Assembly: GCA_035546535.1 (NCBI GenBank)
Contig: DASZWQ010000061.1
Span: 1-64,000 of the forward strand
Direction: 5' to 3'
DNA: 64,000 nucleotides
Source: Pirellulales bacterium
GTDB taxonomy: Bacteria > Planctomycetota > Planctomycetia > Pirellulales > JACPPG01
Position numbers and translations under genes: made by a program. Position 1 is the first letter of the stretch; each line of letters opens with the position of its first letter. Below, piece by piece: positions 14,931 to 41,806 of the stretch. Under the pieces are notes generated by a model. The model did not search any database and was not told where the DNA came from. It saw only the letters and a list, made by a program, of their open reading frames with translations.

Positions 14931-14958
14931 GCCGGCACCTGGGTCCGCGAGAATTGGC

Positions 14959-17708: not shown

Positions 17709-17839
17709 GGACCATCCACAAGGAAAACGCGAGGATCCAAGGATACACGAATCGCCAAAGGGAAGGCCGACGCGCATCTCGAACCGCGTCGCAGCCTGTC
17801 GAAAGCGCACGATAGAGAGATCGCGCGCGAGAAGCCGTC

Positions 17840-18328
17840 TTAGGTCCGCAGGACTCCCGAGCGCTCGTGGCGCGCAGTGTCACACAGCGGGAATGAGGCT
17901 TGCCGATTCGCCGCTTCTGTCTCGGGCGTGGCGGCGACAAGAGGCACAGCCTCGAACTCGGCGGCCGGCGGTGCGGCTACAGAGACTACCGGCAGGCGCG
18001 CCGCTGAGTCGGTCACGTCGTCACCGATTAATCGCACGACAAGCATGTGCTCGCCGGAATCGGTCGAGTCTTCGTGCTCCTGATCCTGCGCCGGAAGCGT
18101 GAACTGGAAGCCGAGCAGGAAGATGTGCATATGCACCTGCGCGGCAAACCAGGCGGGCTCGTCGCAGTCGTCCGACGGCTGGAGCATGGCCAGCGGCACC
18201 GCATCGTGATGGTCGTGCGGGCTCAGGCCGCCTGGATGCGCATGCTGCATGCCGGTCGAGAAGGTGGCCGTCATCAGCAAGGCCACCGCGACCAACCGCG
18301 TGCAACTTTCTACAGGTCGACTGCACAT
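17840..18328 (-). CDS. Small exported His-containing protein, first gene of the metal-efflux cluster
   Basis: A 162-residue protein of unknown family. A signal-like hydrophobic stretch (VAVALLMTATFS) is followed by HAHPGGLSPHDHHDA, several Met and His residues (VHMHIF), and a loosely structured Pro/Ala/Glu-rich C terminus with two Cys. The ATG at 18328 best fits an exported protein. The composition suggests metal binding or sensing in the periplasm. It sits 131 bases upstream of the His-rich lipoprotein gene and downstream of a plausible promoter. Confidence 0.6.
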   Translation of the reverse strand: MCSRPVESCTRLVAVALLMTATFSTGMQHAHPGGLSPHDHHDAVPLAMLQPSDDCDEPAWFAAQVHMHIFLLGFQFTLPAQDQEHEDSTDSGEHMLVVRLIGDDVTDSAARLPVVSVAAPPAAEFEAVPLVAATPETEAANRQASFPLCDTARHERSGVLRT

Positions 18329-18377
18329 CGAGAACGGTTCCTGAACAGGCTGCGCGCCCCACCACGGCGTCTGTGTA

Positions 18378-18407
18378 AGTATACATGGTGTAGGAAGTAT
18401 GGACCAA
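18378..18407 (-). promoter_or_regulatory. Candidate promoter for the metal-efflux cluster
   Basis: On the minus strand TTGGTC (complement of 18402-18407) and TATACT (complement of 18378-18383) are separated by 18 bases, about 50 bases ahead of the first start codon. The long spacer is compatible with MerR-type activation, but no clear CueR-like dyad was found. Confidence 0.4.
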
Positions 18408-18608
18408 TCCGCCATCGCGGCGATGCCGCCGAAAAGCACCATGAGGAGTGCCGTTTCACCCGCTTCGCTCCCCACCGAAAACGGTGAGAAACCCGGGGCT
18501 CGGTGGCCCACCTTGACCCCCACTCTCGGCTCAGATGCGGTGATTTGCGGTTGCCAGCATGTGCCGCGTCGTTTTTAATGTTCGGTTGTTCAACCCGGCG
18601 GCCAGTGG

Positions 18609-18637
18609 TTGAACTGCTCCGATTGTGCTGTTAACGA
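18609..18637 (+). promoter_or_regulatory. Candidate promoter for the HU-like gene
   Basis: TTGAAC and TAACGA lie 17 bases apart, about 125 bases ahead of the HU-like start codon. The -35 box is good and the -10 box weak. Confidence 0.35.
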
Positions 18638-18762
18638 GGGCCGGCGCGGCGGTCCCCCTGGAACAAGGCACCAGCAACAGTCAATCGGCGGCTGCGTCGG
18701 ACGTGCTGCTCGGTAAGCATTCTCGCCCCCAAACCACAGATCGAATAAGGACAGGACGAATC

Positions 18763-19086
18763 ATGACGCCAGACGCTTCCAAGAAGGCCCCGACCAAGAC
18801 CGAAATCCTCAACGCGCTCGCTGAGAAGACGCAGCTCACGAAAGCTCAAATCAGTGCCGTATTCGATGCGCTCAGCGAGGAAATCGGCGCGAGCCTCGAC
18901 GGCCCCGGCTCGTTCACGATCCCCGGTCTGGTCAAGATCGAGCGCAAGCACGTGCCGGCCAAGCCCGCCCGCACCGGCGTCCCCAACCCCTTCAAGCCGG
19001 GCGAGCTGATGGACGTGCCGGCCAAGCCCGCCTCGACCAAGATCACGGTTCGGGCGCTGAAGCAGTTGAAGGACATGGGTAAGTAG
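18763..19086 (+). CDS. HU-family DNA-binding protein
   Basis: A 107-residue histone-like protein. The N-terminal helices (TKTEILNALAEKTQLTKAQ) and the later beta region (GPGSFTIPGLVKIERKHV) follow the HU/IHF fold. The usual arm region is Pro/Lys-rich (VPAKPARTGVPNPFKPGE), and the C terminus ends in a basic helix. It would bind and bend or compact DNA as a dimer. The ATG at 18763 is preceded by AAGGACAGG. It stands alone between divergent and convergent neighbours. Confidence 0.88.
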   Translation: MTPDASKKAPTKTEILNALAEKTQLTKAQISAVFDALSEEIGASLDGPGSFTIPGLVKIERKHVPAKPARTGVPNPFKPGELMDVPAKPASTKITVRALKQLKDMGK

Positions 19087-23748: not shown

Positions 23749-24176
23749 GTCGTTTTTGCTTGTTCGCGGGTGGGAAGGATATCGAGATTGTAACCAAGCC
23801 CGCGCCCTTGGTGCGGTGGCGGCAAGGCCTTATTGTATGGGGCGATCGCGGGTTGTTTCGGGTCGCCAAGGAGCGACTGGTCGCGGGCCGGAGATGCGCC
23901 GGGCCGGGCGCGGCGGCGAATGGAGGTCGCCGGCCCCCTAGGTGCTCCCAAGAGGCTGGGCCGGTGGTGGCCGGCATTTTGGGGCCCCAAGGTAGTTGAC
24001 AATCGTGCCGGTTAGGATAGAAATTAAGTCGGGGAGTTCGTGAAAAATGTCACAAGACCCCTTCTCGCCCGCTCATCGAGCTGTAAATTGTTTTTCCATA
24101 GTCCTTTGCAGCGCTTGCTCGACCGGGTCCGCTTTTGGCTCTCGATCGCGCGCATCGTGCCAGCGAGTACAGCCGT
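23749..24176. other. Intergenic region upstream of the respiratory operon
   Basis: A 428-base divergent region. Bases 23800-23990 are GC-rich with short inverted GGCC/CCGG motifs and no convincing gene. A good promoter lies at 23996-24023, leaving a leader of about 150 bases before the Rieske gene that could hold regulation. No riboswitch was recognised. Confidence 0.5.
23996..24023 (+). promoter_or_regulatory. Promoter for the Rieske/cytochrome b operon
   Basis: A perfect -35 box TTGACA (23996-24001) and TAGAAA (24018-24023) lie 16 bases apart, followed by an AT-rich start region. It is the best sigma-70-like promoter I can see in the window. Confidence 0.6.
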
Positions 24177-25289
24177 ATGACTGAAAAGAAGAAGATGTCC
24201 ACGGCCGATATTCTGGCGGCCGCTCGCAAGAACGCCGCTGCTGGTGCGGCACCGGCCTCGAAGCCAGCCGCAGAGGCCGCCCCTCGAGAAGCCGCGGCTG
24301 AAGCCGAAGTCGCTGCGCTCGCTGAAACGGTGCCCGCTGAATCGGCGCCCGCTGAATCTGCGCCCGCTGAGGCAGCTCCGGCGAAGCCGAAATCGGCCGT
24401 TGCTGGTGGCGCCAAGCTGAGCGTTGCCGAGATCATGGCGATGGCCCGCGCCAACAAAGCGGCCCCCGGAGCGGCGCCGGCCAATCCTGCTGCTGCGGCG
24501 AAGCCTGCGGCCGAGAAGCCAGCGCCGAAGCCGAAGGCCGATAAGCCCGCCGCGAAGCCGGCAGCGGCTGCCGCGGCCGGACCGGCCGTACGCGATACGT
24601 CAAGCATCTTGGCGGCCGCACGCGCTGCGGCGAAGCCTGGTCCGGTGAGCAAATCAGAAGCAGCCGCGCGATTGAAGCCGTCGGCTCCCGCGAAGCCCGC
24701 TAAGGGAGAGACCGTCGCGCCGCCGATGCCGGCCAAGCCCGAGTACGCCAAGCCGAAGGCCAAGGAGGCGGCACCGCAAGAAGATCGGCGTTTCTTCCTG
24801 GGCGTGTTGTTCGGGTCGTTTCTCGGCTTGGGATTCAGCACGCTGGCCGCGACCGGCGGCTTGTGGACGCTGGCGACGCTGCGTTTCATGTTCCCCAACG
24901 TGCTGACCGAGCCGCCCAGCAAGTTCAAGATCGGCTTCCCGGGCGATTTCCCGCCGGGTGTGGTCGACGAAAAGTTCAAAGCGCAATTCGGCATCTGGCC
25001 AGTCAACGTGGAATACAAGGGTCAACGGCAAATCGTGGCCTTGAAGACCGTGTGCACGCACCTGGGCTGCACGCCGAACTGGTTGGAAGCGGAACAAAAG
25101 TTCAAATGCCCCTGTCACGGCAGCGGCTTTTACAAGGACGGCATCAATTTCGAAGGCCCGGCCCCGCGCCCGCTCGAGCGGTACGCGATTCGTCTGGCTG
25201 ACGATGGACAACTGGAAGTCGACAAGAGCCGGACGTTTCAGGAGGAGTTGGGGCAGTGGAGTGACGCTGCTTGCTTTGTATCCGTGTAA
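24177..25289 (+). CDS. Rieske iron-sulfur protein with a long repeat-bearing N-terminal tail
   Basis: A 370-residue 2Fe-2S subunit of a bc/b6f-type quinol oxidase. The cluster motifs are C293-T-H295-L-G-C298 and C311-P-C313-H314-G-S-G, giving Cys293, His295, Cys311 and His314 as ligands and Cys298-Cys313 as the disulfide. A membrane anchor (about 205-235) is preceded by an internal twin-Arg signal DRRFFLG, fitting Tat export. The first 200 residues form an Ala/Pro/Lys-rich tail, presumably cytoplasmic, with three copies of a short helix motif (8-17 STADILAAAR, 82-91 SVAEIMAMAR, 141-149 TSSILAAAR). Such a tail is absent from textbook Rieske proteins. The start is the ATG at 24177; Met7 is an alternative. 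Confidence 0.93.
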   Translation: MTEKKKMSTADILAAARKNAAAGAAPASKPAAEAAPREAAAEAEVAALAETVPAESAPAESAPAEAAPAKPKSAVAGGAKLSVAEIMAMARANKAAPGAAPANPAAAAKPAAEKPAPKPKADKPAAKPAAAAAAGPAVRDTSSILAAARAAAKPGPVSKSEAAARLKPSAPAKPAKGETVAPPMPAKPEYAKPKAKEAAPQEDRRFFLGVLFGSFLGLGFSTLAATGGLWTLATLRFMFPNVLTEPPSKFKIGFPGDFPPGVVDEKFKAQFGIWPVNVEYKGQRQIVALKTVCTHLGCTPNWLEAEQKFKCPCHGSGFYKDGINFEGPAPRPLERYAIRLADDGQLEVDKSRTFQEELGQWSDAACFVSV

Positions 25290-25393: not shown

Positions 25394-25496
25394 CGTTTCG
25401 ACAGCTTTTTTGTTTCGAGAAACGTCTGCTGCGGAAGTTTTCGTTCGGTTCACCACCGTCATCCAGGTCGTACGTCACAAAAACGCGGAATCATCC

Positions 25497-26270
25497 ATGT
25501 CTCTCGGCGAAGCCATTCGTAACTCGCAGCTCTGGAAGAGCGTTTTCCGTCACCCGATGCCGCTCGATCGGCGCAATCGCATCGTGGTGATGTTGACGAA
25601 CTTCTTCCTGCACCTGCACCCGGTGTCGATCAAGAAGCAAGGCATCGCGCTGAGCTACACGTGGTGCATGGGCGGGGTGACGTTCTTCCTGTTCCTGGTC
25701 GAGACCGTGACCGGCGTGCTGTTGATGTTCTATTACCGCCCGACGCTGGAGTGGGCGTACAACGATATTCTTTCGCTGCGCGACGTGACCAGTTTGGGCA
25801 TCATGCGCGAGCTGCACCGCTGGGGTGCGCACGCAATGGTCATCACGACGTGGCTGCACATGTATCGCGTGTTTCTCACGGGCAGTTATAAACCGCCGCG
25901 CGAATTCAACTGGGTCGTCGGCGTGTTGTTATTGCTGCTGACCCTGCTGTTGTCGTTCACCGGCTATTTGCTGCCGTGGGATCAATTGGCGATCTGGGCT
26001 ATCACGGTCGGTTCGAACATGGCCCGTGCGACTCCGATCCTGGGGCACGAAGGGCCGGGTGCGAAGCTGTTGAACATCGACGGCATTTCGATGATTACCA
26101 ACGCCTCGGACGCGCGCTTCGTGACGATCGGCGCGCGGTTCGTCGGCGAGGATACGTTGAACCGTTTTTACGTGCTGCACTGCATCGCGATTCCGCTGGC
26201 CGTGGCCTTGCTGTTGGCGATCCACTTCTGGCGGGTGCGCAAAGACGGCGGCATCAGCGGCCCGCTGTAA
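25497..26270 (+). CDS. Cytochrome b6-type subunit of the quinol oxidase
   Basis: A 257-residue membrane protein with four helices and two bis-His haem b sites. The ligand pairs are His107/His121 (spacing 14) and His228/His243 (spacing 15, the b6 and not the bc1 value). WCMGGVT places Cys57 at the position of Cys35 in chloroplast cytochrome b6, which holds haem ci (cn). The FYYRPT motif after helix A is also b6-like. It would form the quinone-reduction and haem core with the next gene product. The start is the ATG at 25497; an upstream in-frame extension overlaps the T-rich leader. Confidence 0.94.
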
Positions 26271-26449: not shown

Positions 26450-27805
26450 ATGCACAGTGATCCGGGCTTTCTGACGCGAGTTGCGACGCCGCTCGGCTTC
26501 TACTACATGCTGCTCTGCGCCATCAACTGGGGCGCCGCCCTGCTCATGTGGCGCAAGGGAGCCAAGACCTACACCACGCTCGAGCTCGGGCCGGCCAAGA
26601 TACCGGTCACCAACGTGCTGATCTGGCTGCTGGTCGGGTCGGCGTTTTTCATCTGTGCGCCGCTGGCCATGATCGGCCTGCCCCCTTCGCTTCCTCCCGA
26701 AGTGAAGCAGGTCGTCAACGAGCTTTCCGGCCCGGTGACGCTGACGCTCGGTTCGCTTGCGCTGTTTACGGTGTTGTTCGTCTTCCGTCGCGCGTGGACC
26801 GCGCCGCCAATAGCCTGGACGCTGTTCAATTTGGCGCTCCTGGCGATGGGCATGTCGATGACCGACCCCAACTTCACCGCCATCGTCGCCAAGCCCGATA
26901 ACGTGCCGATCGTGGGCCTGGTGTTCCTGCTCGGCTTCTTCACCTGGCTGGCGACGTACAAGGCCGTGATCAACGACGACCGCGCGGCGCAAGGTTTGCC
27001 GCCGCTCGAAAAAGAGGACAGCGAAAAGGTGCTGGTGTGGCCCGACCTGGTCTACACCGAGCTGATCTGCATGGTCGCCCTGACGGCCTTCCTCTTGATC
27101 TGGGCCATCGCCTTGCAGGCGCCGCTGGAAGAGCCCTCGAGCCGCGTGAAGACGCCGAATCCCTCGAAGGCGCCCTGGTACTTCCTCGGTTTGCAGGAAA
27201 TGCTGGTCTACTACGATCCGTGGATGGCGGGCGTGGTGCTGCCGAGCGTCGTGCTCTTGGGGCTGATGGCGATTCCGTATCTGGATTTCAATCGCAAGGG
27301 ATCGGGTTACTACACGATTTCGGAGCGCAAGTTCGCGTACCTGGTTTTCCAGTTCGGCTTTCTGGAACTGTGGGTGATCTTGATCATCCTGGGGACCTTC
27401 CTGCGCGGTCCGAACTGGAACTTCTTCGGCCCGTTCGAAACCTGGGACGCGCACAAGGTGCTCGCGCAGAACAACGTCGACCTGTCGCAGTTCTTCTGGA
27501 TCAAGTGGCTGAATCAAAGCATGCCCAAGGCGCCGACGGGGGCGGGGGCCGGCACCGAGTTGCTTTATATCCTGTACCGCGAACTGCCGGGCATTCTGCT
27601 GGTATTCGCTTACTTCGTGCTGTTGCCGCCGATCATGGCCGCCACGATCTTCCGCAAGTTCTTCGTCAAGATGGGCTTCATCCGCTACATGCTGATGGCG
27701 AACTTGCTGTTGATGATGGGGTCGTTGCCTTTGAAAATGGTCGCCCGCTGGAGCGTGAACCTGAAATACTTCATCAGCATTCCCGAGTACTTCCTCAATT
27801 TTTGA
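26450..27805 (+). CDS. Long subunit-IV-like (cytochrome b C-terminal) membrane protein
   Basis: A 451-residue membrane protein. The middle part (about 197-290) matches the cytochrome b C-terminal/PetD region that completes the quinol-oxidation (Qo) site, including DLVYTELICMVALTAF and a long PLEEP...DPWMAG loop. Where the Qo PEWY motif should be, the sequence is KAPWYFLGLQEM, so the Glu is replaced by Pro. Before this lie about 190 residues with four or five extra predicted helices, and after it about 160 residues with two or three more, whereas PetD is near 160 residues in total. It is cotranscribed with the b6 gene (179-base gap). Confidence 0.85.
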   Translation: MHSDPGFLTRVATPLGFYYMLLCAINWGAALLMWRKGAKTYTTLELGPAKIPVTNVLIWLLVGSAFFICAPLAMIGLPPSLPPEVKQVVNELSGPVTLTLGSLALFTVLFVFRRAWTAPPIAWTLFNLALLAMGMSMTDPNFTAIVAKPDNVPIVGLVFLLGFFTWLATYKAVINDDRAAQGLPPLEKEDSEKVLVWPDLVYTELICMVALTAFLLIWAIALQAPLEEPSSRVKTPNPSKAPWYFLGLQEMLVYYDPWMAGVVLPSVVLLGLMAIPYLDFNRKGSGYYTISERKFAYLVFQFGFLELWVILIILGTFLRGPNWNFFGPFETWDAHKVLAQNNVDLSQFFWIKWLNQSMPKAPTGAGAGTELLYILYRELPGILLVFAYFVLLPPIMAATIFRKFFVKMGFIRYMLMANLLLMMGSLPLKMVARWSVNLKYFISIPEYFLNF

Positions 27806-27897: not shown

Positions 27898-30800
27898 ATG
27901 CCTGCTACTGAACAAACTTGGCGCGACTCGAAGCTGCTGCACGTCGTGTTCGGCATCTCGGGCGTGGCCATGCTGGTGACCACGGTGTGGATGCTGGCCG
28001 CCGACCACAATCGCGAATGGAAGCCCGTCCAGCGGAAATTTCGCGAGATCGAAACCTGGTACACGCAGGCGAAAATCAACGACCAGGACGACAGCGAGTT
28101 CCAGCAGAAGACCGTCGCGTTGAAGGAGGCGCTCGCCAAAGCCGAAGCCGAGCCGCCGGCAGAAGGGATCGTCACGTCCTTCCTCGACGAGGCGCGCACG
28201 CGCGCCGACCAGAATGGCTATCAGTCCGATCTGCCGCGCATCGAAGCGGCCGACAAGGCGCTTCGTGAGGCCGCCGAGAAGTCGGATCAAGAAAACGCTC
28301 AGGAAAACTTGATCAAGGCCCGCGCCAATCTCGTGCAGGGCATGGGCGAGGTCGTGCGCAAGGCGCAGTTCGACGAAGACAAGCGTTTCAGCTTGCTCAA
28401 ATTCCGTCGCGCCGATTTGGACGTCGTTCGCAGCAACTACAACCTGGGCGTGGGCGAAGGGTTGCCCGAGGCCGAGTTGGTGGCGCGGCAAGAGGCAGTC
28501 AATGACGTGGTAGAAAACGTCAACGAGATGACGCTCGAATATCAGCAAGCCAAGACGCATCGCCTGGAGCTGGAACAGATTCTTGGGCAGGCTGGCACCA
28601 AGATCGCCGACGCGAAAAAGGCACTCGGCAAACACCTGGCCGATCTCGAAGTCCTGGAAAAAGCCAAGGCCGACCGGCGGCTGTCGCCCACGAAAGAGAT
28701 TCTCGACCTGCCGATCATCAACGCTTTCAACAGCCCGCTGAAGATCGAGCAGATCTGGCTGCCGAAGCTGACGTTGAACAACAACTTCAGCGACGTGGCG
28801 CGCTTCGATCGTTGCATCACCTGTCACCAGGCGATCGATAAGTCGGCGGCCGGTCCGGGTTCGTTGCCCGCTTATCCGGCGCGCCCGCACGAGTTCGTCG
28901 CGCTCACCGTAAAGACGCCTGCCGAACCGCCGGAAGGGTTGAAGAAGGGCGCACCGAAAGACGGAAAAGAGCTCGCGAAAGCGCTTTGGGATGTTTACGG
29001 ATTGCAACTCGCCGACGAGGGATTGTTCGACAGCCGCGACGTGATGGTCAGCGTCGTGAAGCCGGAGAGCCTGGCGGCTGACGCACAATTCCAGGTCGGC
29101 GACGTGTTGCAATACGTCAACGACGTGGACGTGGCCCACGAGCGCGGCCTGGTGTATCGCTATTTGCTCGACAGCGTCGCCTGGGGCAAGCCGCTTTCGG
29201 TCCGCGTGAACCGTGGCTTGCCGCATCCGTTCAGCTCGCACCCGCGGCTGGACCTGTTCGTCGGCTCGCTCAGCCCACACAAGATGATGGACGTCGGCTG
29301 CACGATCTGCCACGAAGGGCAAGGGAGCGCGACCAGCTTCCAATGGGCGTCGCACACGCCGAACGATCCTCACGAAATGGCCGAGTGGCAGAAGGAGCAC
29401 GGCTGGTTCAGCAATCATCACTGGATCTTCCCGATGCGTCCCGAGCGGTTCCTGGAAAGCAGCTGCTTGAAGTGCCACTTCAGCGTGACCGAGTTGGAGC
29501 CGAGCGAGCGCTTCCCCGATCCGCCCGCCCCCAAGCTCGTGGAAGGATTCAATATCATCCGCCAATACGGCTGTTTCGGCTGCCACGAGATCAATGGCTT
29601 CGACGGCCCGTCGCGCCGGCGCGGGCCGGACATGCGCGTCGAACCGAATTACGGCGCCGTCGCGGCCAGCGTGCTGACCGACAAAGGCCTCAACGACTAC
29701 GAGCGGCAGTTGGCCGAAAAGGTCGTCGACCATCCCACCGAAAAGCAGCCGCGTAAGCTGTTGGCCGAAATGCTGGCCGACGATGCCGCGGCAAAAGCTT
29801 CGTCCGGTGACGATGCGAAGCAAGCCCGTCTGAGCGTTCAGACGCATCAACTCGGCGCTCTGCTGGGTACCGACGACGAGACGCCGGGCACCTATCGCAA
29901 GGTGGGCCCGAGTTTGCGATACGTGAAGAGCAAGCTCGACGCGAATTTCCTATCGAACTGGATTCGCAATCCGCTCGATTTCCGGCCGACCACGCGGATG
30001 CCGAAATTCTTCGGCCTCGACGGCCACTTGCGGGAAATTCGCCGCGACGAGCACGGCCGTCCGGAATTGACGGAAAAGCTCGACGCCGATGGCAAGGTCG
30101 TGCTCGACGAAGAGGGCGAGCCGGTCATGGTGCCCGTCTACGTCGCCAGCCCCGGCTTGGAAAAGTCGGAAAAGTTCGAGCCGGTCGAAATTCGCGCGGT
30201 CAGCGAATACCTGCTCGATATCAGCCAGCCGTTCAAGTACATCGAAAAGCAGCAAGGCGTGGAAGAAGCCTCGGCCGAACGCGGCAAGTTGGTCTTCCAG
30301 GTGCGCGGCTGCCTGGCCTGTCATCAGCACAAGGACTTCCCCGACGCCAAGGACACGCAAGGGCCTGACTTGTCGCGCATCGGCGACAAGCTCACTTCGC
30401 CCGAGGCGGCCAAGTGGTTGTATAGCTGGGTGCGTGAGCCGAAGCACTATCACGCGCGCACGGTGATGCCGAACTTGTTCCTCGAGCCGGTCACCGATGC
30501 CGACGGCAAAACCTCGGACCCGGCGGCCGACGTCACGGCGTACCTGCTCTCGTCGCGCGACGGCTGGAAGCCGGGCGATGCACCGGCCGTCGACGAGAAG
30601 AACTTGGACGAGTTGGCGGCCGAATACCTGCGCGGCAGCTTCACGCATCGCCAGACCGAGGAATATCTGAAGAACGGCATTCCGGCCAAGCTTCGCGACC
30701 AGTTGAAGGTCGACGAACGGCTGCTCGTCGCGACCGAGGGTATGTCGCCCGAGGAGAACACTCGGCACAAGCTCTTGTATGTCGGTCGCCGCACGATTGG

Positions 30801-32370
30801 CCGCCTGGGCTGTGCCGGCTGCCATGACATTCCGGGCTTCGAAGATGCGAAGTCGATCGGCACGGGTCTGGCCGACTGGGGCCGCAAAGAGCCATCGAAA
30901 CTCGCCTTCGAGCAGGTCGTGCAGTACATCGCGCAAGAGAATTTCGTCCACGGCCATGGCCACGTGCACAACATCGAGCAGGCGCTCGATCCGCATAATG
31001 TCGATCCGGACACCGGGTTCTTCCTGGAGGCGGTCGTCAACCACGAGCGCGAGGGCTTCATCTGGCAGAAGCTCCGCGAGCCGCGCAGCTACGACTACCG
31101 CATGACGGAGAACAAGGATTACATCGAGCGGCTGCGGATGCCGAAGTTCAATCTCACGGACAAGCAGCGCGAGGCCGTGATCACGTTCGTTCTGGGGCTG
31201 GTGGCCGAGCCGCCGGCGGCACAATACGTCTATAAAGCCGATCCGCGCCGCCAGGCGGTGCTGGACGGCGAGCGGCTGATTACGAAATTCAATTGCGACG
31301 GCTGCCATACGTTCCGCATGGAGACGTGGGAGTTCGATTACGATCCCAAGACCTTCCCCGAGCCGCCGCCGTTCGACGACTACGCCTTCGAGAAACCCCA
31401 TTTCACGCCGCAGCAGTTGGCCGATTCGAAGCGGGTCGATCGCCGTGGGCTGGGGCACGCCACGGTGACCGGCATGCCGAATCCGGAAGTTGCCGAGGAT
31501 GACGACGGCAACCCGCTGTACTACTTCGGCCTGTGGAAGTCGCTGCCGATCAACGGCCAGCCGTGGATCGTGGGCGGCCCCGAGGCCCCGGTGCAGGAGA
31601 GCCGGATCACGAAGAAGATTCCGCCCTACGGCGGTAATTTCGCCCGACTTCTGCATCCCGTGGCGCTGGCCATGGAGCAGGCCACGAACCCGAACGCCAA
31701 GGCGAGCGACGCCTGGGGCTGGGTGCCGCCGCCCTTGTTGAACGAGGGCATCAAGGTGCAGACGCAATGGCTGCACGACTTCCTGCTGAATCCTTACCCG
31801 ATCCGGCCGGCGGTGGTGCTGCGGATGCCGCGGTTCAACATGTCGAGCGAAGAGGCGACGCAGTTGGCCAACTACTTCGCGGCCGCTGACGGCGCGCAGT
31901 ATCCGTACCTGGTCGATCATCGCACCGACTCGAGCTACCTGGCCGAGCAGGACGCGAAACATCCCAAGCGATTCGAGGATGCCCTGAAGATCATCACGGG
32001 CAACGAATACTGCGTGAAATGCCACAAGGTCGGCGATTTCACGCCGGCCGGTAGCGCCGCAGCGCTGGCACCGAACCTGGACCGCGTCTACCAGCGGTTG
32101 CGCCCCGATTTTGTAGAGAAGTGGATCGGCAATCCGAAGCGTTTGCTCCCCTACACCGGCATGCCCGTGAATTTCCCGCCGGACAAACCCGCCGATCAAG
32201 CCTTATTCCCGGGCGACAGCCTGGAGCAGGTCGAGGGCGTGGTCGATTTCCTGTTGAACTACGACGCCTACATGAAGGACCGCACGTCGATCAAGCCGAT
32301 GGTCAAGCCGGCGCCGCCGGCCACGACCTCGGCCGATGCGTCGGGCGCGGTTCAGGCGGCGACGCCGTAG
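27898..32370 (+). CDS. Giant octahaem cytochrome c subunit
   Basis: A 1490-residue protein with one N-terminal membrane helix (about 12-33), a charged coiled-coil region (about 40-270), and eight CxxCH haem c sites at residues 306, 468, 523, 559, 805, 972, 1133 and 1372. A PDZ-like segment lies at about 365-440 (AQFQVGDVLQYVNDVDV). The hydrophilic bulk would face outward. It directly follows the cytochrome b genes, where b6f and bc1 operons carry cytochrome f or c1, so it is the likely electron exit of the complex and perhaps a scaffold to the oxidase. It is far larger than any classical cytochrome c1 or f. Confidence 0.92.
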   Translation: MPATEQTWRDSKLLHVVFGISGVAMLVTTVWMLAADHNREWKPVQRKFREIETWYTQAKINDQDDSEFQQKTVALKEALAKAEAEPPAEGIVTSFLDEARTRADQNGYQSDLPRIEAADKALREAAEKSDQENAQENLIKARANLVQGMGEVVRKAQFDEDKRFSLLKFRRADLDVVRSNYNLGVGEGLPEAELVARQEAVNDVVENVNEMTLEYQQAKTHRLELEQILGQAGTKIADAKKALGKHLADLEVLEKAKADRRLSPTKEILDLPIINAFNSPLKIEQIWLPKLTLNNNFSDVARFDRCITCHQAIDKSAAGPGSLPAYPARPHEFVALTVKTPAEPPEGLKKGAPKDGKELAKALWDVYGLQLADEGLFDSRDVMVSVVKPESLAADAQFQVGDVLQYVNDVDVAHERGLVYRYLLDSVAWGKPLSVRVNRGLPHPFSSHPRLDLFVGSLSPHKMMDVGCTICHEGQGSATSFQWASHTPNDPHEMAEWQKEHGWFSNHHWIFPMRPERFLESSCLKCHFSVTELEPSERFPDPPAPKLVEGFNIIRQYGCFGCHEINGFDGPSRRRGPDMRVEPNYGAVAASVLTDKGLNDYERQLAEKVVDHPTEKQPRKLLAEMLADDAAAKASSGDDAKQARLSVQTHQLGALLGTDDETPGTYRKVGPSLRYVKSKLDANFLSNWIRNPLDFRPTTRMPKFFGLDGHLREIRRDEHGRPELTEKLDADGKVVLDEEGEPVMVPVYVASPGLEKSEKFEPVEIRAVSEYLLDISQPFKYIEKQQGVEEASAERGKLVFQVRGCLACHQHKDFPDAKDTQGPDLSRIGDKLTSPEAAKWLYSWVREPKHYHARTVMPNLFLEPVTDADGKTSDPAADVTAYLLSSRDGWKPGDAPAVDEKNLDELAAEYLRGSFTHRQTEEYLKNGIPAKLRDQLKVDERLLVATEGMSPEENTRHKLLYVGRRTIGRLGCAGCHDIPGFEDAKSIGTGLADWGRKEPSKLAFEQVVQYIAQENFVHGHGHVHNIEQALDPHNVDPDTGFFLEAVVNHEREGFIWQKLREPRSYDYRMTENKDYIERLRMPKFNLTDKQREAVITFVLGLVAEPPAAQYVYKADPRRQAVLDGERLITKFNCDGCHTFRMETWEFDYDPKTFPEPPPFDDYAFEKPHFTPQQLADSKRVDRRGLGHATVTGMPNPEVAEDDDGNPLYYFGLWKSLPINGQPWIVGGPEAPVQESRITKKIPPYGGNFARLLHPVALAMEQATNPNAKASDAWGWVPPPLLNEGIKVQTQWLHDFLLNPYPIRPAVVLRMPRFNMSSEEATQLANYFAAADGAQYPYLVDHRTDSSYLAEQDAKHPKRFEDALKIITGNEYCVKCHKVGDFTPAGSAAALAPNLDRVYQRLRPDFVEKWIGNPKRLLPYTGMPVNFPPDKPADQALFPGDSLEQVEGVVDFLLNYDAYMKDRTSIKPMVKPAPPATTSADASGAVQAATP

Positions 32371-32503: not shown

Positions 32504-33271
32504 ATGATGAAGCAGCTCTGCACGCTTAAGCGACTTGGCACGAGGGCGGCATGCCTGGTTCTGGCTCTCGGCGCCGCGACAACGGCCAATGCTCAGTGGG
32601 GCAACCTGAAGGGCAAGTTCGTCTACGACGGCAAAGCGCCCGAGCCCAAGAAGCTCGATACCAGCAAAGAGGCCATGTGCGTCGCTCATAATTTGACGGA
32701 CGAGTCGCTCATTGTCGGGCCCGACGGCGGCATCAAGAACGTCGTGATCTTCGTCCGCACCAAGGGAGTGAAGGTCAACCCGTCGCTCGAGAAGCAACCG
32801 GATAAGGTCGAGATCGACAACAAGAATTGCCGCTTCGAGCCGCACATTCTGCCGATGCTGCTTTCGCAAACGCTGGTCGTGAAGAATTCTGATCCCTTCT
32901 CGCACAACAGCAACGTCACCGAGGTCGGCGGGCAGGGAGCGAATCCTTTGATCGCGCCGGGCAAGGAAGCGACCTACAAGTACGCCCGGCCCCAGGTGAT
33001 TCCGCAACCGGTGGCTTGCAACATTCACCCGTGGATGAAGGCGATGGTGCTGCCACGTGATAATCCTTACTTCGCGGTGTCGAAGGATGACGGCACGTTC
33101 GAGATCAAGGACTTGCCCGTCGGTAAGCTCGAGTTCCAGGTGTGGCAAGAGAAAGCCGGCAACGTGGATACGAAGGCCTGGCCCAAGGGACGCTTCACGA
33201 TGGATATCAAGGCCGGCGACACTAACGACCTGGGCACGGTGAAACTGGAACCGAAGTTGTTCAACAAGTAA
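32504..33271 (+). CDS. Exported amicyanin-like cupredoxin
   Basis: A 255-residue protein with a signal peptide (cleavage near ANA-QW). A type 1 copper site is suggested by His134 in DPFSHNSN and by Cys172, His175 and Met178 in CNIHPWM. The C-x2-H-x2-M spacing equals that of amicyanin, with Pro after the His. A pair of further Cys (59, 109) could form a disulfide. The C-terminal part (FEIKDLPVGKLEFQVW) resembles a carboxypeptidase-regulatory-like beta domain. It probably carries electrons between the octahaem subunit and the oxidase. GAGGAGAAG precedes the ATG. Confidence 0.8.
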   Translation: MMKQLCTLKRLGTRAACLVLALGAATTANAQWGNLKGKFVYDGKAPEPKKLDTSKEAMCVAHNLTDESLIVGPDGGIKNVVIFVRTKGVKVNPSLEKQPDKVEIDNKNCRFEPHILPMLLSQTLVVKNSDPFSHNSNVTEVGGQGANPLIAPGKEATYKYARPQVIPQPVACNIHPWMKAMVLPRDNPYFAVSKDDGTFEIKDLPVGKLEFQVWQEKAGNVDTKAWPKGRFTMDIKAGDTNDLGTVKLEPKLFNK

Positions 33272-33305
33272 TTGTCGAGTGCGCCCGCGAGCACCTCGAT
33301 TCCCC

Positions 33306-34208
33306 ATGAGGAATATCGTGAACCGTTTTTTTGCTTCGATCGTGATTCTTGCCTGCGGCGCCCTGCTGCTGGCCGGCACTTCCGGCTGCCGCGAAGCGGT
33401 GGCCATCAACCCCAAGCCGGACATCAAGCTCGCCAATGACTTGCGTGCCGGCTCAGGCGGCGGCGGGGAGGCCGGTGCCGCGCAAGCCGCGCAGCCGACC
33501 GGCACCGGTTGGGGCACGCTGAAAGGCAAGTTCGTCTACGCCGGCGAGGCGCCGGCCGCCAGCTTCCTGTCGACCGGCGGCAAGGACGGCGCCGTGTGCG
33601 GTCAGCAGGTTCCCAATCAGCAGTTGGTCGTCGACTCGGGCAACAAGGGCCTGGCCAACGTCGTGGTCTTTGCCCGCAAGGTGTCGCGAGTTTTCAAGCC
33701 CGAGGATGGTGCGGCGCCGGCCGAGGCGGCGCCTGCGATCTTCGATCAGAAGGGTTGCTTGTTCCTCAGCCACGTTTTCGCGACGAGCACGAAAGAACCG
33801 CTCGAGATCAAGAACAGCGATCCGGTGTCGCACAATACGAGCTTCGACCCGGGCGGCGGCAATACGCCGGCCAACCCGCTGCTGCAGCCGAATTCGTCGG
33901 TGACTTACAAGTTCAGCCGCGCGATGAATGCCCCGGCCGCCGCCACGTGCAGCATTCATCCGTGGATGAAGGGTTACATCATCGCCCGCGATGATCCGTA
34001 CGTCACTGTGAGCAAGCCCGACGGTTCGTTCGAGATCAAGAACCTGCCGGCCGGCGAAGATATCGAGTTCCAGGTGTGGCACGAGCAAGCCACCGGTGGG
34101 CTGGAGGCCAAGGCAGGCTGGAACAAGGGGCGCTTCAAGGTCAAGGTGCCGGCCGACGGTGAGTTGGACCTGGCCACGATCGAAGTCCCCGCCACCGCAT
34201 TTCATTAG
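33306..34208 (+). CDS. Second amicyanin-like cupredoxin, a lipoprotein
   Basis: A 300-residue paralogue of the preceding protein, with a lipobox-like leader ending GTSGC28 and a Gly/Ala-rich spacer (48-66) that would tether it to a membrane. Copper ligands correspond: His176 in DPVSHNTS, and Cys215, His218, Met221 in CSIHPWM. The shared GTLKGKFVY opening and the FEIKNLPAG C-terminal region confirm the duplication. I start at the ATG at 33306 because it begins the leader; a GTG nine codons earlier would spoil it. The gene starts 34 bases after the first cupredoxin stop. Confidence 0.8.
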   Translation: MRNIVNRFFASIVILACGALLLAGTSGCREAVAINPKPDIKLANDLRAGSGGGGEAGAAQAAQPTGTGWGTLKGKFVYAGEAPAASFLSTGGKDGAVCGQQVPNQQLVVDSGNKGLANVVVFARKVSRVFKPEDGAAPAEAAPAIFDQKGCLFLSHVFATSTKEPLEIKNSDPVSHNTSFDPGGGNTPANPLLQPNSSVTYKFSRAMNAPAAATCSIHPWMKGYIIARDDPYVTVSKPDGSFEIKNLPAGEDIEFQVWHEQATGGLEAKAGWNKGRFKVKVPADGELDLATIEVPATAFH

Positions 34209-34236: not shown

Positions 34237-35556
34237 ATGAAGAGATTTTCGTTTGACTGTCTGTCACGCCTGAGCCTGGTGGCTAGCGTCTTGGCGCTGC
34301 CCGTGCTGGTCGGTTGCGGCAAGAGCGATCCAGCCGTGTTTCGCCTGAACCTGCAAGGGCGCAGTCCGGATGACTTCCGCGTCACCTCGAAGGACAAGGA
34401 GCAGGCGGAAAAAGACGCCAAGATCGCGAACGAGGCCGCGCTGAAAACGGTTTCGACCGTGCTGTACGCCATGTTCGGCGGGCCGGACGATCCGTACGTC
34501 ATGCCCGAAACCGGGCTCGATCCGCGGAAGATCGAATTGGCATCCGGCCGGGCCGGCTCGAACGAATCGGGACGGCAGCGCGGACTTTATCGTCAGCATT
34601 GTGCTCATTGCCACGGCATCAGCGGTGACGGCGCCGGTCCCACGGCGGCTTTCTTGAACCCCTACCCGCGCGACTATCGCACGGGCGCTTTCAAATTCAA
34701 GAGCACGGCCCGCGCGGCCAAACCAACCAACGACGACATGCGCCGCATCCTGCACGAAGGGATCGCGGGCACGGCCATGCCCTCGTTCCTTCTCTTGCCG
34801 GATGACGAGATCGACGCCCTGGTCGAGTACGTGAAATACCTCAGCATTCGCGGCCAGACCGAGACCCTGCTGTTGATCAAGGTGCTGGACGAAGGGGACT
34901 CGATCGATCTGAAGACCGTGAAGCTGAGCGAGCTGGCCAGCGAATACGTGACGCCGGTCGCCGAGTCGTGGGCGCAGGCCGAATCGTCGATCATCGTTCC
35001 GCCCGATGGTCCGCCGACCGATACGCCCGAGGCCTTGGCCGCCTCGGTGGCCAAGGGGGCCGAACTGTTCCGCGGCGCCAAGGCGCAGTGCGCCAAATGC
35101 CACGGTCCGACGGCGATGGGCGATGGCAGCGAAGAGTTGCTCTTCGACGATTGGAACAAGGTCAAGCAGTTCGCCGACCTGGCCAAGAAGATCGCCGACG
35201 CCGAGCAAATCGCCGACCGCAAGGAACGATCGGAAACGCTCAGTGATCTACGAACAAAGATGATCGCCGAGAACGACAAGTGGCTGTTGCCGCAGCAGCA
35301 GGTTCAACCGCGCAATCTGCGATTGGGCACCTATCGCTTCGGGCGCCGCCCGGTCGATATGTATCGCCGCATTTTCGCCGGCATCAACGGCACGCCGATG
35401 CCGCAAGGTGGTGCTGATGCCAGCAATCCCAGTGGTATGACGCCGGAGGAAATCTGGCACATCGTCAATTACGTTCGCACGCTTCCGTACGAAAAGCTCA
35501 GCGATCCGTACGTGGGCAAGGGACGCTTGGCAGGTTTGGATACGCGGCACGAATAA
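34237..35556 (+). CDS. Dihaem cytochrome c lipoprotein
   Basis: A 439-residue lipoprotein (leader ending LVGC27) with two cytochrome c domains: CAHCH at residue 122, with a likely Met ligand in GTAMPSF, and CAKCH at residue 285, with a likely Met in GTPMPQGG. A helical, charged insert of about 60 residues lies within the second domain. Placed directly before coxB, it is the obvious donor to CuA, especially as the subunit II here has no fused cytochrome c domain. The ATG follows the second cupredoxin stop by 28 bases. Confidence 0.88.
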   Translation: MKRFSFDCLSRLSLVASVLALPVLVGCGKSDPAVFRLNLQGRSPDDFRVTSKDKEQAEKDAKIANEAALKTVSTVLYAMFGGPDDPYVMPETGLDPRKIELASGRAGSNESGRQRGLYRQHCAHCHGISGDGAGPTAAFLNPYPRDYRTGAFKFKSTARAAKPTNDDMRRILHEGIAGTAMPSFLLLPDDEIDALVEYVKYLSIRGQTETLLLIKVLDEGDSIDLKTVKLSELASEYVTPVAESWAQAESSIIVPPDGPPTDTPEALAASVAKGAELFRGAKAQCAKCHGPTAMGDGSEELLFDDWNKVKQFADLAKKIADAEQIADRKERSETLSDLRTKMIAENDKWLLPQQQVQPRNLRLGTYRFGRRPVDMYRRIFAGINGTPMPQGGADASNPSGMTPEEIWHIVNYVRTLPYEKLSDPYVGKGRLAGLDTRHE

Positions 35557-35651: not shown

Positions 35652-35657
35652 ATGATC

Positions 35658-36412
35658 GTGGGTAGGTTTTGGAGCTTGCTATTCCTGTTGGTGCCGATCC
35701 TGGGGGTTGGCGTCTTCTGGTGGGCGCCCGGCGCCGGCTATTGGCTGCCGCGCGATATTTCGGAGCATGGCCACCAGATCGACCACCTGTGGACGTTCAT
35801 CCTCATTCTCACGGGCCTGGTATTTGCGGCTACCGAGGGACTGTTGTTCTGGTTCTTGTGGCGCTATGACGGCGCGAACAACGCGGATCCCGTGAAGTAC
35901 ACGCACGGCAGCCACAACCTGGAAGTCATTTGGACCATTCTGCCCGCCGCCACCTTGCTGTTCATTGCCATCTACCAGATGAACGCTTGGGCCGACGTGA
36001 AGATTCGCAATCCCGGCGGCGAAGGCTTGCCGGTGACAGTCGAAGTCACGGGCCGGCAGTTCGAGTGGCGGCTGCGCTACCCTGGCAAGGACGGCAAGCT
36101 CGGCACGCCGGACGATATCTATCACGTCAACGACCTGCACATCCCGGTCAACGAAGAGATTCTGGTCTCACTCAAGACCCAGGACGTGCTGCACGACTTC
36201 TTCCTGCCGAACTTGCGCGTCAAGCAAGACGCCGTGCCCGGCATGGCGATCCCCGTCTGGTTCAAGGCGACCGAGACGGGCACTTACGACCTCGTCTGCG
36301 CCGAGCTATGTGGCTGGGGGCACTACAAGATGAAAGGACGGCTCACCGTCCAGAATCGCGATCAGTACGACGAGTGGCTGTCTGAAATGTTTGCGGCTCA
36401 AGAGGCGACGAA

Positions 36413-36416
<4 letters not shown>
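35658..36416 (+). CDS. coxB: Cytochrome c oxidase subunit II
   Basis: A 252-residue subunit (from GTG 35658) with two membrane helices (about 5-25 and 48-70, plus a further hydrophobic stretch near 92-108) and a CuA cupredoxin domain. The binuclear copper ligands are visible: His179 (VLHDFF), Cys214, Glu216, Cys218, His222 and Met225 in CAELCGWGHYKM. Unlike caa3-type subunit II there is no C-terminal cytochrome c. Its stop overlaps the coxA ATG as ATGA. Confidence 0.96.
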
Positions 36417-38224
<1,808 letters not shown>

Positions 38225-38226
38225 TC

Positions 38227-39279
38227 GTGGTGCAATCGCGCACACAAATCGGCACCGCTCAGTCGCCCGCGACGTCGGCCAGTCCTTGGCCGCATCGCAT
38301 GGCGGTGTTGTTGGTCTGCGCGACGTTTCCCTTGATCTGGGTCGGCGGGCTGGTCACGACGTATGAAGCGGGCATGGCCGTGCCCGACTGGCCGAACACG
38401 TTCGGCTACAACCTGTTCCGCTACCCGTGGCAGACGTGGATCGCCGGTCCGTGGGACTTGTTCATCGAGCATGGGCATCGGTTATTCGGCGCCCTGGTGG
38501 GCCTGCTGACGATCCTGTTCGTGATGACGGTTTTCTTGTGTGATTCGCGTCGCTGGATGCGCTTTGCCGCGCTCGGCGCCTTGGCGCTTGTGATCGCCCA
38601 GGGAGCCCTCGGCGGCATGCGCGTGTTGTTCGACGAGCGCTTACTGGCCCAAGTGCATGGCTGCGTCGGTCCGGCATTCTTTGCGCTGACCGTGGCATTG
38701 GCCGTATGGACCTCGCCGCGCTGGCTTGCCGGGCGTGAAGAAATGCGCGATCCCGCGCGGGCTCGGTCTGCGGCGCGCTTTCAACGACTCGCTTTCCTCA
38801 CGGTGGCGATCGCTTACCTGCAACTTGTGCTCGGCTCGCAACTGCGTCACGTGCGACCGATGGTCGACGTCACCGTATTTCGCGCGGCGGTGTGGTTGCA
38901 CTTGTTCATGGCCGCGGCTTTGGTCGCCCATGTGATGTTGCTTGCTCTCCGGGCGGTGCGCTCGTTCGCGTCCGATTCGTACATAGTTGTCCCGGCCGTG
39001 ACCCTGGCCGGGCTTGTGCTCGTGCAATTAGGCTTGGGTGTCGGGGCCTGGGTGGTGAATTACGGCTGGCCCGAGCCGATCTTCGGCCGCTTCGCGTGGG
39101 CGCAGCAGTTCGTCGTCACGCAGGAAGGGCGCGTGCAGGCCTGGGTCACCACCGGCCATGTCGCGACCGGATCGCTGATCCTGGTCACCGCGCTCCTGGT
39201 AGCGCTGCGATCGCTGCTCCTGCCGGCTGCCGAGCGACATGCGGCGCGCAGTGCCATTGCCGCGGGGGTGTTGGCATGA
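38227..39279 (+). CDS. ctaA: Haem A synthase (COX15/CtaA family)
   Basis: About 350 residues with eight predicted helices and the conserved His motifs of the two half-domains (EHGHRLFG, QVHGCVGP, WLHLFMAA and TTGHVATGS). It oxidises haem O to haem A for the oxidase encoded next door. The start is probably GTG at 38227, two bases after the coxA stop; the ATG at 38299 would leave almost no N-terminal tail. Its stop overlaps the ctaB ATG by four bases. Confidence 0.9.
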   Translation: MVQSRTQIGTAQSPATSASPWPHRMAVLLVCATFPLIWVGGLVTTYEAGMAVPDWPNTFGYNLFRYPWQTWIAGPWDLFIEHGHRLFGALVGLLTILFVMTVFLCDSRRWMRFAALGALALVIAQGALGGMRVLFDERLLAQVHGCVGPAFFALTVALAVWTSPRWLAGREEMRDPARARSAARFQRLAFLTVAIAYLQLVLGSQLRHVRPMVDVTVFRAAVWLHLFMAAALVAHVMLLALRAVRSFASDSYIVVPAVTLAGLVLVQLGLGVGAWVVNYGWPEPIFGRFAWAQQFVVTQEGRVQAWVTTGHVATGSLILVTALLVALRSLLLPAAERHAARSAIAAGVLA

Positions 39280-40193
39280 GCAGTGTCACCACGACAACCG
39301 CTGCTGTGCCCACGTCACGCAGCCGCGTGCTCGTGCGATTGCGCGATTACGTCGAGCTGACCAAGCCGAAAATCGTCGTCATGGAGTTAGTGACGATTAT
39401 CGTCGCCGCCAGTGTTGCCAGTTGGGGGCAGCCCGATTGGCAGCTTTTGGCCTACGCGCTTGCCGGCACCGGGTTGGTGGCCGCCGGCGCGAGCGCCTGG
39501 AATCAATGGATCGAACGCAAAAGCGACGCGCGTATGCCGCGCACTGCCGATCGCCCGCTGCCAGCCGGCCGGCTGTCGGGTAGCGAAGCGATCTGGTTTG
39601 GCACGGTTACAACCATCGCGGGCGTTGCGCTATTGGCGGCGATGGTGAACTGGTTGACCGCCGCGCTTGGTCTAGCGACCTGGGCCGCTTACGTTTGCTT
39701 CTACACGCCGCTCAAGTCGCGCACTTCGCATAACACCGCCGTGGGCGCTGTCGCCGGTGCGATGCCGGTTCTGATGGGTTGGACAGCCGTCGGCGGACAT
39801 TTGAACCTGGCCGCGGCGACCTTGTTCATGATCGTTTTCTTGTGGCAGTTCCCGCATTTCATGGCCATCGCCTGGATGTACCGCGACGACTACGCGGCCG
39901 GCGGCTGCCAGATGCTGAGCGTGGTCGATCCGACGGGGCGGCGCGTGGGATTGCTCGCCGTGGTGGCGGCGCAGGTGCTCTTGCCCGTTAGCGTGTTGCC
40001 GGCCGTGGTGCGGTTGGCGGGCCCGGGATATTTCTTCGCGGCGCTGGCACTGGGGCTGGCGCAGTTGGCGGCGGCCGCCTGGTTTGCCCGTCGCTTGGAC
40101 CAGCGTTCGGCGCGGCTGCTGTTGCGGGCGTCGCTCGTTTATTTGCCGACGGTGTTGGTGTTGCTGTTGTTATCGAGTCGTATGGCGAGTTAA
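39276..40193 (+). CDS. ctaB: Protohaem IX farnesyltransferase (COX10/CtaB)
   Basis: A 305-residue UbiA-family prenyltransferase with about eight or nine helices. The first Asp-rich motif region reads NQWIERKSDARMPRTADRPL, and the second reads AWMYRDDYAAGG. It converts haem B to haem O with farnesyl diphosphate, the step before ctaA. The ATG overlaps the ctaA stop (ATGA). The order ctaA-ctaB inside the cox operon is logical for haem A supply. Confidence 0.94.
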   Translation: MSSVTTTTAAVPTSRSRVLVRLRDYVELTKPKIVVMELVTIIVAASVASWGQPDWQLLAYALAGTGLVAAGASAWNQWIERKSDARMPRTADRPLPAGRLSGSEAIWFGTVTTIAGVALLAAMVNWLTAALGLATWAAYVCFYTPLKSRTSHNTAVGAVAGAMPVLMGWTAVGGHLNLAAATLFMIVFLWQFPHFMAIAWMYRDDYAAGGCQMLSVVDPTGRRVGLLAVVAAQVLLPVSVLPAVVRLAGPGYFFAALALGLAQLAAAAWFARRLDQRSARLLLRASLVYLPTVLVLLLLSSRMAS

Positions 40194-40315
40194 TGCGAGA
40201 AAGAGACCGATCGTTCGACAAAACGGGGATGGTCTGGGTGCCAGAGCAGTACTGCCAACACCAAATGTCCGCCCCCCTTTTGTCCGACGCTTTTAGAAAG
40301 GCATAGCTACCGGTC

Positions 40316-41302
40316 ATGGCCACAGTCGCAGACGCCCATCATGGGCATGACACGCATTTGAAGTTGCAGTATCAGCCGGGCTTGCCGTTGCCAAACGGCA
40401 AGCTGTTCATGTGGCTGTTCCTGTCGACGGAGATCATGTTCTTTGCCGCGCTGATCGGCGTGTACATCGTGATTCGCTTCGGCGCGCCCGACTGGCCGGC
40501 CACGCACGACGTACACCTTTCGGAGCCCATCGGTGCGTTCAATACCTTCGTGCTGATCTGCTCCAGCGTGAGCATCGTGCTGGCGTTGGAAAGCGCCCGA
40601 GCGAACAAGGCAGGGCTGGCCAAAGCGTGGATGGCGGTCACCTTGGCCCTGGGGGGCGTGTTCCTCGGCGTGAAAATGTACGAGTACAACGCCAAGTTTT
40701 CGCACGGCATCTACCCCATGAAGCCGCGCAGCCGCATTCACGAGCGGGCCGATCTCGACTTCGGCTCGGCCGCGCGCATCAAGCTGCAATCGATCATCGA
40801 GCCCTTGGCCAAGCTGCCTGCCGACGCCATCGACAAGAAACAGTCCGACGAGCTGCTGTTGGCCAAGAAAATGAAGGAAGATTTCGGCTCGACCAACCTG
40901 GTCACCTTGCAGCGCATGGCCGACGATATCATGCCGCCGCCGACACTCGAGGGACAACACACGAGCGCGGCGGCGCACCCGGAAACCTTGTCCGAAGAGC
41001 ACCCGTGGGTGAATCTTCCGTATTCGGACGAAGGCGCCGACAAGGTCGAGTACGTGCGCGAGTTGATCGAGTCGTTCAAAATGCCGATCGTGATTCCCGG
41101 TGGCAACATGTGGGCCAGCACCTATTTTCTGCTGACCGGCTTTCACGCCCTCCACGTGCTGGTAGGCTTGATCGTGTTTGCCATCATGATGACCTGGACG
41201 CTTGATATCCGCCATGCTGTCGGTATCGAGAACATCGGCCTGTACTGGCACTTTGTCGACCTGGTGTGGATCTTCCTGTTCCCGCTTTTGTACCTGTTCT
41301 AA
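40316..41302 (+). CDS. coxC: Cytochrome c oxidase subunit III with a large soluble insertion
   Basis: A 328-residue subunit. The first three helices (about 28-55, 73-92, 103-121) and the last two (about 266-293 and 306-328, with [17 protein letters not shown]) are typical. Between them, residues about 130-262 form a charged hydrophilic insertion with no membrane segment, which ordinary bacterial subunit III lacks. The N terminus is His-rich. GAAAGG precedes the ATG. The insertion probably lies in a loop at one membrane face; its partner is unknown. Confidence 0.92.
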
Positions 41303-41344
41303 ATCCCGCGCACGCGGGCTTGCCTTTTCGCGGAGTTACCAACG

Positions 41345-41806
41345 ATGCACGACGCCAGTCATTCGGCCGACGCTCATGCGCACGCCCACGGCGATCACGG
41401 TGGGATCGCCAAGTACGTTTACGTCTTTCTGGCGCTGTGCGTGCTGACCGGCTGCTCGTTCTTTACGTATTCCAGCTTGTGGCCGTGGCACGATCAGCCG
41501 CAGGTGGGGCGCACCTTCATGATGGCCGTCTCCTGCACCAAGGCCATGTTGGTGATTTTGTTCTTCATGCACCTGAAGTACGAAGCCGACTGGAAATACG
41601 TCCTGACGATTCCCGCCTCGATCATGTCGATTCTGTTGATGATGGCCTTGGTTCCGGACGTTGGGCTGCGGATGCGCACCTACTCGCCCGAACGACGCGA
41701 GCATGCCGCCATGTCCGAGAAGGAATACCAGAAATTCCAGACTGAAGTGAAAAAGTTGGAACCGGTACACGATGAGTCGGGGCACGCGCCTGCGGCTGCC
41801 CATTAA
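41345..41806 (+). CDS. coxD: Prokaryotic cytochrome c oxidase subunit IV
   Basis: A 153-residue protein with a His-rich N terminus, three predicted helices (about 22-43, 57-78, 86-106), the family's FFMHLKYE motif after the second helix, and a charged C-terminal tail. It stabilises the oxidase core. It starts 42 bases after coxC and ends the core oxidase genes. Confidence 0.88.
   Translation: MHDASHSADAHAHAHGDHGGIAKYVYVFLALCVLTGCSFFTYSSLWPWHDQPQVGRTFMMAVSCTKAMLVILFFMHLKYEADWKYVLTIPASIMSILLMMALVPDVGLRMRTYSPERREHAAMSEKEYQKFQTEVKKLEPVHDESGHAPAAAH

Follow-up and report, generated by a model that had tools for sequence, protein, structure and literature searches.

A probable cytochrome f/c1-replacing octahaem cytochrome c in an oxidase-linked Rieske/b6-type gene cluster of a Pirellulales bacterium

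We analysed a 64,000-nucleotide stretch of DNA from Pirellulales bacterium (assembly GCA_035546535.1, contig DASZWQ010000061.1, positions 1 to 64,000 of the forward strand; hereafter the window), which encodes a 1490-residue cytochrome c with eight CxxCH haem-binding motifs. This octahaem protein is probably the membrane-anchored subunit that replaces cytochrome f or c1 in an oxidase-linked Rieske/b6-type quinol:cytochrome c oxidoreductase. The oxidase-linked reading is favoured by the gene order, the co-occurrence with the b6 gene, the homology to Kustd1485 of Kuenenia, the invariant candidate ligands and the CuA motif of the neighbouring oxidase subunit II. We infer the membership of the protein in the complex in this bacterium, the ligand assignment, the electron path and the oxidase as acceptor. 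The genes are arranged in the order Rieske protein, b6-type cytochrome b, subunit IV, octahaem protein, two cupredoxin-like proteins, dihaem cytochrome c and aa3-type oxidase. The cytochrome f/c1 position given in the initial annotation stands: the octahaem gene follows those for the Rieske protein, b6 and subunit IV and is conserved together with b6.

Analysis of the open reading frame (ORF) at 27898-32370 revealed exactly eight CxxCH motifs, in agreement with the earlier count, at residues 306, 468, 523, 559, 805, 972, 1133 and 1372 (spacings of 162, 55, 36, 246, 167, 161 and 239). All 16 cysteines of the protein lie within these motifs, and shuffling of its residues yielded a mean of 0.005 motifs with a maximum of 1. 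Two orthologues share the conserved N-terminus MPATEQTWR, in support of the start codon. Hydropathy recovered the proposed N-terminal anchor as one hydrophobic segment, near residues 16-34, and showed no second transmembrane helix. A helical stretch like the coiled coil proposed earlier is predicted by AlphaFold2 (AF2) at residues 60-250, with a predicted local distance difference test (pLDDT) score of 56-92 per ten-residue block, mostly at least 70. The long reach from the membrane that had been suggested along with it was not shown; in the published model of Kustd1485, long helices wrap around the complex (PMC12954380). The main features of the protein are as follows.

27898..32370, + strand: octahaem cytochrome c of the Kustd1485 type, 1490 residues (8 CxxCH motifs, eight-haem orthologues, Kustd1485 homology)
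27943..27999, + strand: single N-terminal transmembrane segment, about residues 16-34 (hydropathy, conserved N-terminal columns)
28075..28647, + strand: long helical, coiled-coil-like stretch, about residues 60-250 (AF2 helices)
28813..29478, + strand: haems 1-3 (C306-H310, C468-H472, C523-H527) with H448, H461 and H486, putatively bis-His (invariance)
28999..29217, + strand: PDZ domain, residues 368-440, between haems 1 and 2 (Pfam PDZ)
29572..30000, + strand: putative class-I c domain of haem 4, C559-H563 to M701, with a variable insert (invariant ligands)
30310..30468, + strand: putative class-I c domain of haem 5, C805-H809 to M857 (PF00034, best stretch 793-885; alignment)
30811..31140, + strand: putative class-I c domain of haem 6, C972-H976 to M1081 (invariant ligands)
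31294..31827, + strand: putative class-I c domain of haem 7, C1133-H1137 to M1310 (invariant ligands)
32011..32163, + strand: putative class-I c domain of haem 8, C1372-H1376 to M1422 (family scan, invariant ligands)

Alignment of 52 octahaem homologues from the phylum, 51 of them distinct, revealed that the eight CxxCH sites are kept (each unchanged in 51 or all 52 of the rows), together with exactly eight further His/Met columns of the same invariance: H448, H461, H486, M701, M857, M1081, M1310 and M1422. The sole row with gaps in the ligand columns is that of locus L082, whose frame is cut by the contig end. Three invariant His surround haems 1-3, and one invariant Met follows each of haems 4-8, suggesting by conservation and order a set of three bis-His and five His/Met haems, with five class-I c domains in series carrying haems 4-8. 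This pattern offers a concrete spectroscopic prediction. The PDZ-like region that the initial annotation placed at about residues 365-440 proved real, and the domain search located it at residues 368-440, between haems 1 and 2. The PDZ match lies below the Pfam cut-off in the window protein (E 3e-4), while among eight Pirellulales orthologues five exceed a Pfam cut-off and three fall below it (best E 2.9e-10). No Pfam PDZ match was obtained in the octahaem proteins of L069 and of L073, a locus from an anaerobic ammonium-oxidising (anammox) bacterium. Judging from these sequences, the PDZ domain is a lineage-specific insertion, perhaps with a role in docking. The 246-residue gap between haems 4 and 5, read earlier as room for extra domains, instead holds the rest of haem 4's own domain, including the invariant Met701, and this spacing falls to 100 in L073. 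In the octahaem protein of L072, an Ala-rich N-terminal repeat (IAAIKAR-like) was observed, which resembles the repeat in the Rieske tail described below.

The octahaem protein has no Pfam match to cytochrome f or c1 and carries eight haems rather than one, and no Pfam match to HAO-like octahaem cytochromes was found. Its matches among PDB sequences are limited to single c domains, PDZ domains and one coiled coil. SoxX scored above its NCBIfam cut-off but covered only one 80-residue c domain, and was rejected as the identity of the protein. In anammox Rieske/b complexes, the replacement of cytochrome f by a hexa- or octahaem protein is already described, along with an added NAD(P) oxidoreductase; Kustd1485 is the octahaem subunit of the Kuenenia R/b-2 complex, Kustd1480-1485, and has been placed within that complex (PMC12954380). 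The Rieske protein of L073 matches PDB 9rk3 over residues 52-168 (E 7e-81), and its cytochrome b and NAD(P) oxidoreductase carry H62, R266, K267 and R550 at the exact positions of Kustd1481/Kustd1483 (PMC12954380); L073 was therefore taken as the R/b-2 cluster of Kuenenia or a very near relative. Comparison of the window protein with the L073 octahaem protein, taken as Kustd1485, revealed 28% identity over 719 aligned columns (E 3e-61), and a separate match segment spans haems 2-4; all ligands align. The initial annotation had named as contrary evidence a close match to a known family of standalone cytochromes c with an unrelated role; none arose. With its eight sites, chain-long homology and a gene beside those for the Rieske protein, b6 and subunit IV, the window protein can be assigned to the Kustd1485 type.

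The genes around the octahaem gene are listed below.

24135..25289, + strand: Rieske protein with a long N-terminal tail (PF00355, conserved position)
25410..26270, + strand: b6-type cytochrome b with haem His ligands, the cN Cys and equivalents of His62/Arg266/Lys267 (PF00033, alignment)
26450..27805, + strand: subunit-IV-like membrane protein, 451 residues, APWY at the Qo motif (PF00032)
32504..33271, + strand: cupredoxin-like protein, CNIHPWM motif (CxxHPWM motif)
33279..34208, + strand: second cupredoxin-like protein, CSIHPWM motif, lipobox-like start (CxxHPWM motif)
34237..35556, + strand: dihaem cytochrome c, lipobox-like start (PF00034, 2 CxxCH)
35652..36416, + strand: cytochrome c oxidase subunit II, CuA motif CAELCGWGHYKM (TIGR02866, above cut-off)
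36413..38224, + strand: cytochrome c oxidase subunit I (TIGR02891, 604 bits, below the cut-off of 671)
38038..41806, + strand: putative haem A synthesis/assembly proteins and oxidase subunits III and IV (assigned by inspection; conserved order)

The listed TTG start of the cytochrome b gene (25410) is probably too far upstream and an ATG near 25497 is likelier, because most cytochrome b orthologues have about 257 residues. The cupredoxin-like proteins have no Pfam match, and their label rests on the CxxHPWM motif; a looser motif, C..H..[MLQ], occurs in 78 of 84 homologous ORFs, and the first of the two has only a weak match in the PDB, to copper nitrite reductase. The tail of the Rieske protein comprises about 200 residues, is rich in Ala, Pro and Lys and holds three copies of a short SxADILAAAR-like motif. 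Of 44 Rieske rows, in which the window sequence is counted twice, 21 hold at least two such copies, from orthologues among L035-L066, L004 and L005; no such repeats occur in the anammox Rieske proteins.

The octahaem gene is widely conserved in the order and occurs with the b6 gene across the phylum. A match at E 0.001 was found in 53 of 57 same-order genomes, some of these matches being weak and to single c domains, and a strong match in 49. Most of the same-order loci examined have the same gene order, and full-length orthologues all have eight haems; three loci (L058, L059 and L061) reach a contig end, with downstream genes beyond view. Among 294 genomes of the phylum, 108 contain both the octahaem and b6 genes, 5 only the former, 16 only the latter and 165 neither, at thresholds that we chose (octahaem, E 1e-12; b6, E 1e-55). 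The b6 limit was set after most other cytochromes b had proved to score weaker than 1e-46, although one reached 5e-63. Fisher's test of this co-occurrence gave 1e-55, a figure that is descriptive only, because the genomes are related. Within the 57 genomes of the order, 46 have both genes, three have only the octahaem gene (G015, G039 and G056, assemblies of several hundred contigs each) and eight have neither; in none of the eight genomes that lack a strong octahaem match was there a strong match to b6.

According to the oxidase-linked reading, quinol would be oxidised at a Qp site built by cytochrome b and the subunit-IV-like protein, with one electron passing to the Rieske cluster and then to a haem of the octahaem protein and the other to the b haems. 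The octahaem chain would pass high-potential electrons mainly through its five predicted His/Met haems to the lipoprotein dihaem cytochrome c, the cupredoxin-like proteins or both, and these would in turn reduce CuA of the neighbouring oxidase. Several observations weigh against this reading. AF2 models of the two halves of the octahaem protein, built from a three-sequence alignment, were poor, with a mean pLDDT of 50 for the first and 32 for the second, which is unusable. In L053, L054 and L057, all of one family, no gene for an oxidase subunit was observed next to the octahaem gene, and the b6 gene of L054 and of L057 lies on a different contig. The co-occurrence statistics ignore shared ancestry. 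The window genome also has two further cytochrome b genes and one NrfD-type gene, so the octahaem complex need not be its main or only complex III. Those two cytochromes b are fused to c domains with one and two haem sites (contigs C50, C124 and C33 of genome G000, loci L091-L093, which include the NrfD locus), and the NrfD gene lies near genes for an iron-sulfur/molybdopterin-like protein and an oxidase subunit I; one genome thus encodes several complexes that oxidise quinol. At L074, genes for a nitrate-reductase-delta-like protein, an iron-sulfur protein and a molybdopterin oxidoreductase (14032-18999) lie upstream of the Rieske/b6/octahaem genes, and this set is perhaps another partner of the octahaem complex.

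Other arrangements of the same proteins were weighed against these data. The octahaem protein might permanently bridge complexes III and IV in a supercomplex, with the PDZ domain and coiled coil as scaffold and no need for a mobile carrier; the adjacent oxidase genes of most Pirellulales loci fit this arrangement, as does the PDZ domain, which is conserved in Pirellulales loci and without a match in L073 and L069, where no oxidase match was found either. However, the genes for candidate carriers, dihaem cytochrome c and the cupredoxin-like proteins, lie between those of the two complexes, and the PDZ domain of L053 exceeds the Pfam cut-off with no oxidase gene beside it, so that we regard a fixed bridge as rather unlikely. 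It is very improbable that the protein works on its own as a multihaem wire to other acceptors and has only its operon in common with the complex: the b6 gene does not adjoin in L054 and L057, but the octahaem gene co-occurs with b6 and Kustd1485 has been published within its complex. An electron-bifurcating complex, in which the low-potential electron reaches a cytoplasmic acceptor as proposed for Kuenenia and the octahaem arm is the downhill branch, appears improbable. In its favour, the complex is homologous, and cytochrome b keeps three residues that are proposed to hold an extra haem b for NAD(P)H formation in Kuenenia (PMC12954380); in an alignment of 46 rows (44 distinct sequences), His62 and Arg266 are each conserved in 44 of 44 and Lys267 in 43 of 44, with Arg in the exception, and the window protein has all three equivalents. 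However, an NAD(P) oxidoreductase gene is absent from the window cluster and was found, among the octahaem loci examined, only in the three anammox loci, L073, L076 and L083 (L096 has a 42% relative), while the best match in the window genome, on another contig, is 34% identical over residues 19-261 of 566, under half its length.

The retention of His62/Arg266/Lys267 without an adjacent NAD(P) oxidoreductase gene suggests that the candidate extra-haem site is not tied specifically to NAD(P)H formation, although this is no proof. Comparing the anammox and oxidase-linked versions offers a direct test of the tie between this site and NAD(P)H formation. We tentatively consider a phylum-wide Rieske/b6-octahaem class, with a conserved eight-haem core and differing acceptors (an aa3-type oxidase in aerobes, NAD(P)-linked bifurcation in anammox), to be possible; if so, the site in cytochrome b that has been proposed to serve NAD(P)H formation would be of older origin and have a different use. 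On the oxidase-linked reading, the octahaem Rieske/b complex would reach beyond anammox bacteria into many other planctomycetes, where it would be tied to oxygen respiration. No description of an oxidase-linked version outside anammox was found in the literature searched; some anammox Rieske/b papers were beyond reach, and novelty is unproven.

Comparison with known systems places the window cluster closest to Kustd1480-1485. The best NCBIfam scores of its cytochrome b and subunit-IV-like protein are those of the Geobacter-type ExtP and ExtQ, all Ext scores being under their curated cut-offs (ExtP 258/290, ExtQ 57/150 and ExtS 26/100 bits). Alternative complex III is not indicated in the window cluster, which has Rieske/b proteins and no NrfD-type subunit; the genome's single NrfD match lies on a different contig. 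Cytochrome f and cytochrome c1 each have one haem, and the octahaem protein resembles them in gene position and in its presumed role as electron acceptor of the Rieske protein. In Methanoperedens, an archaeon likened here by description only, multihaem c proteins are likewise encoded with a Rieske/b complex, but these are two pentahaem cytochromes (PMC4683180). The R/b-3 proteins Kuste4573 and Kuste4574 also lie beside a b6-type cytochrome b and are multihaem; unlike the window protein, the former has six haems and the latter is an HAO-like octahaem protein. With L096 taken as the Kuste4569-4574 cluster by gene content and order, the window protein has no significant match to its six- and eight-haem proteins (35 residues, E 0.2, to the eight-haem protein). 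The window protein shares with Kustd1485 the eight haems, the invariant candidate ligands, the N-terminal anchor, the helical stretch and the Rieske/b6/subunit IV neighbours. It differs in its length (1490 residues versus 948 in the frame read) and in its PDZ domain between haems 1 and 2, and its cluster, which lacks the NAD(P) oxidoreductase gene of the Kustd1485 locus, continues with cupredoxin-like proteins, dihaem cytochrome c and the oxidase.

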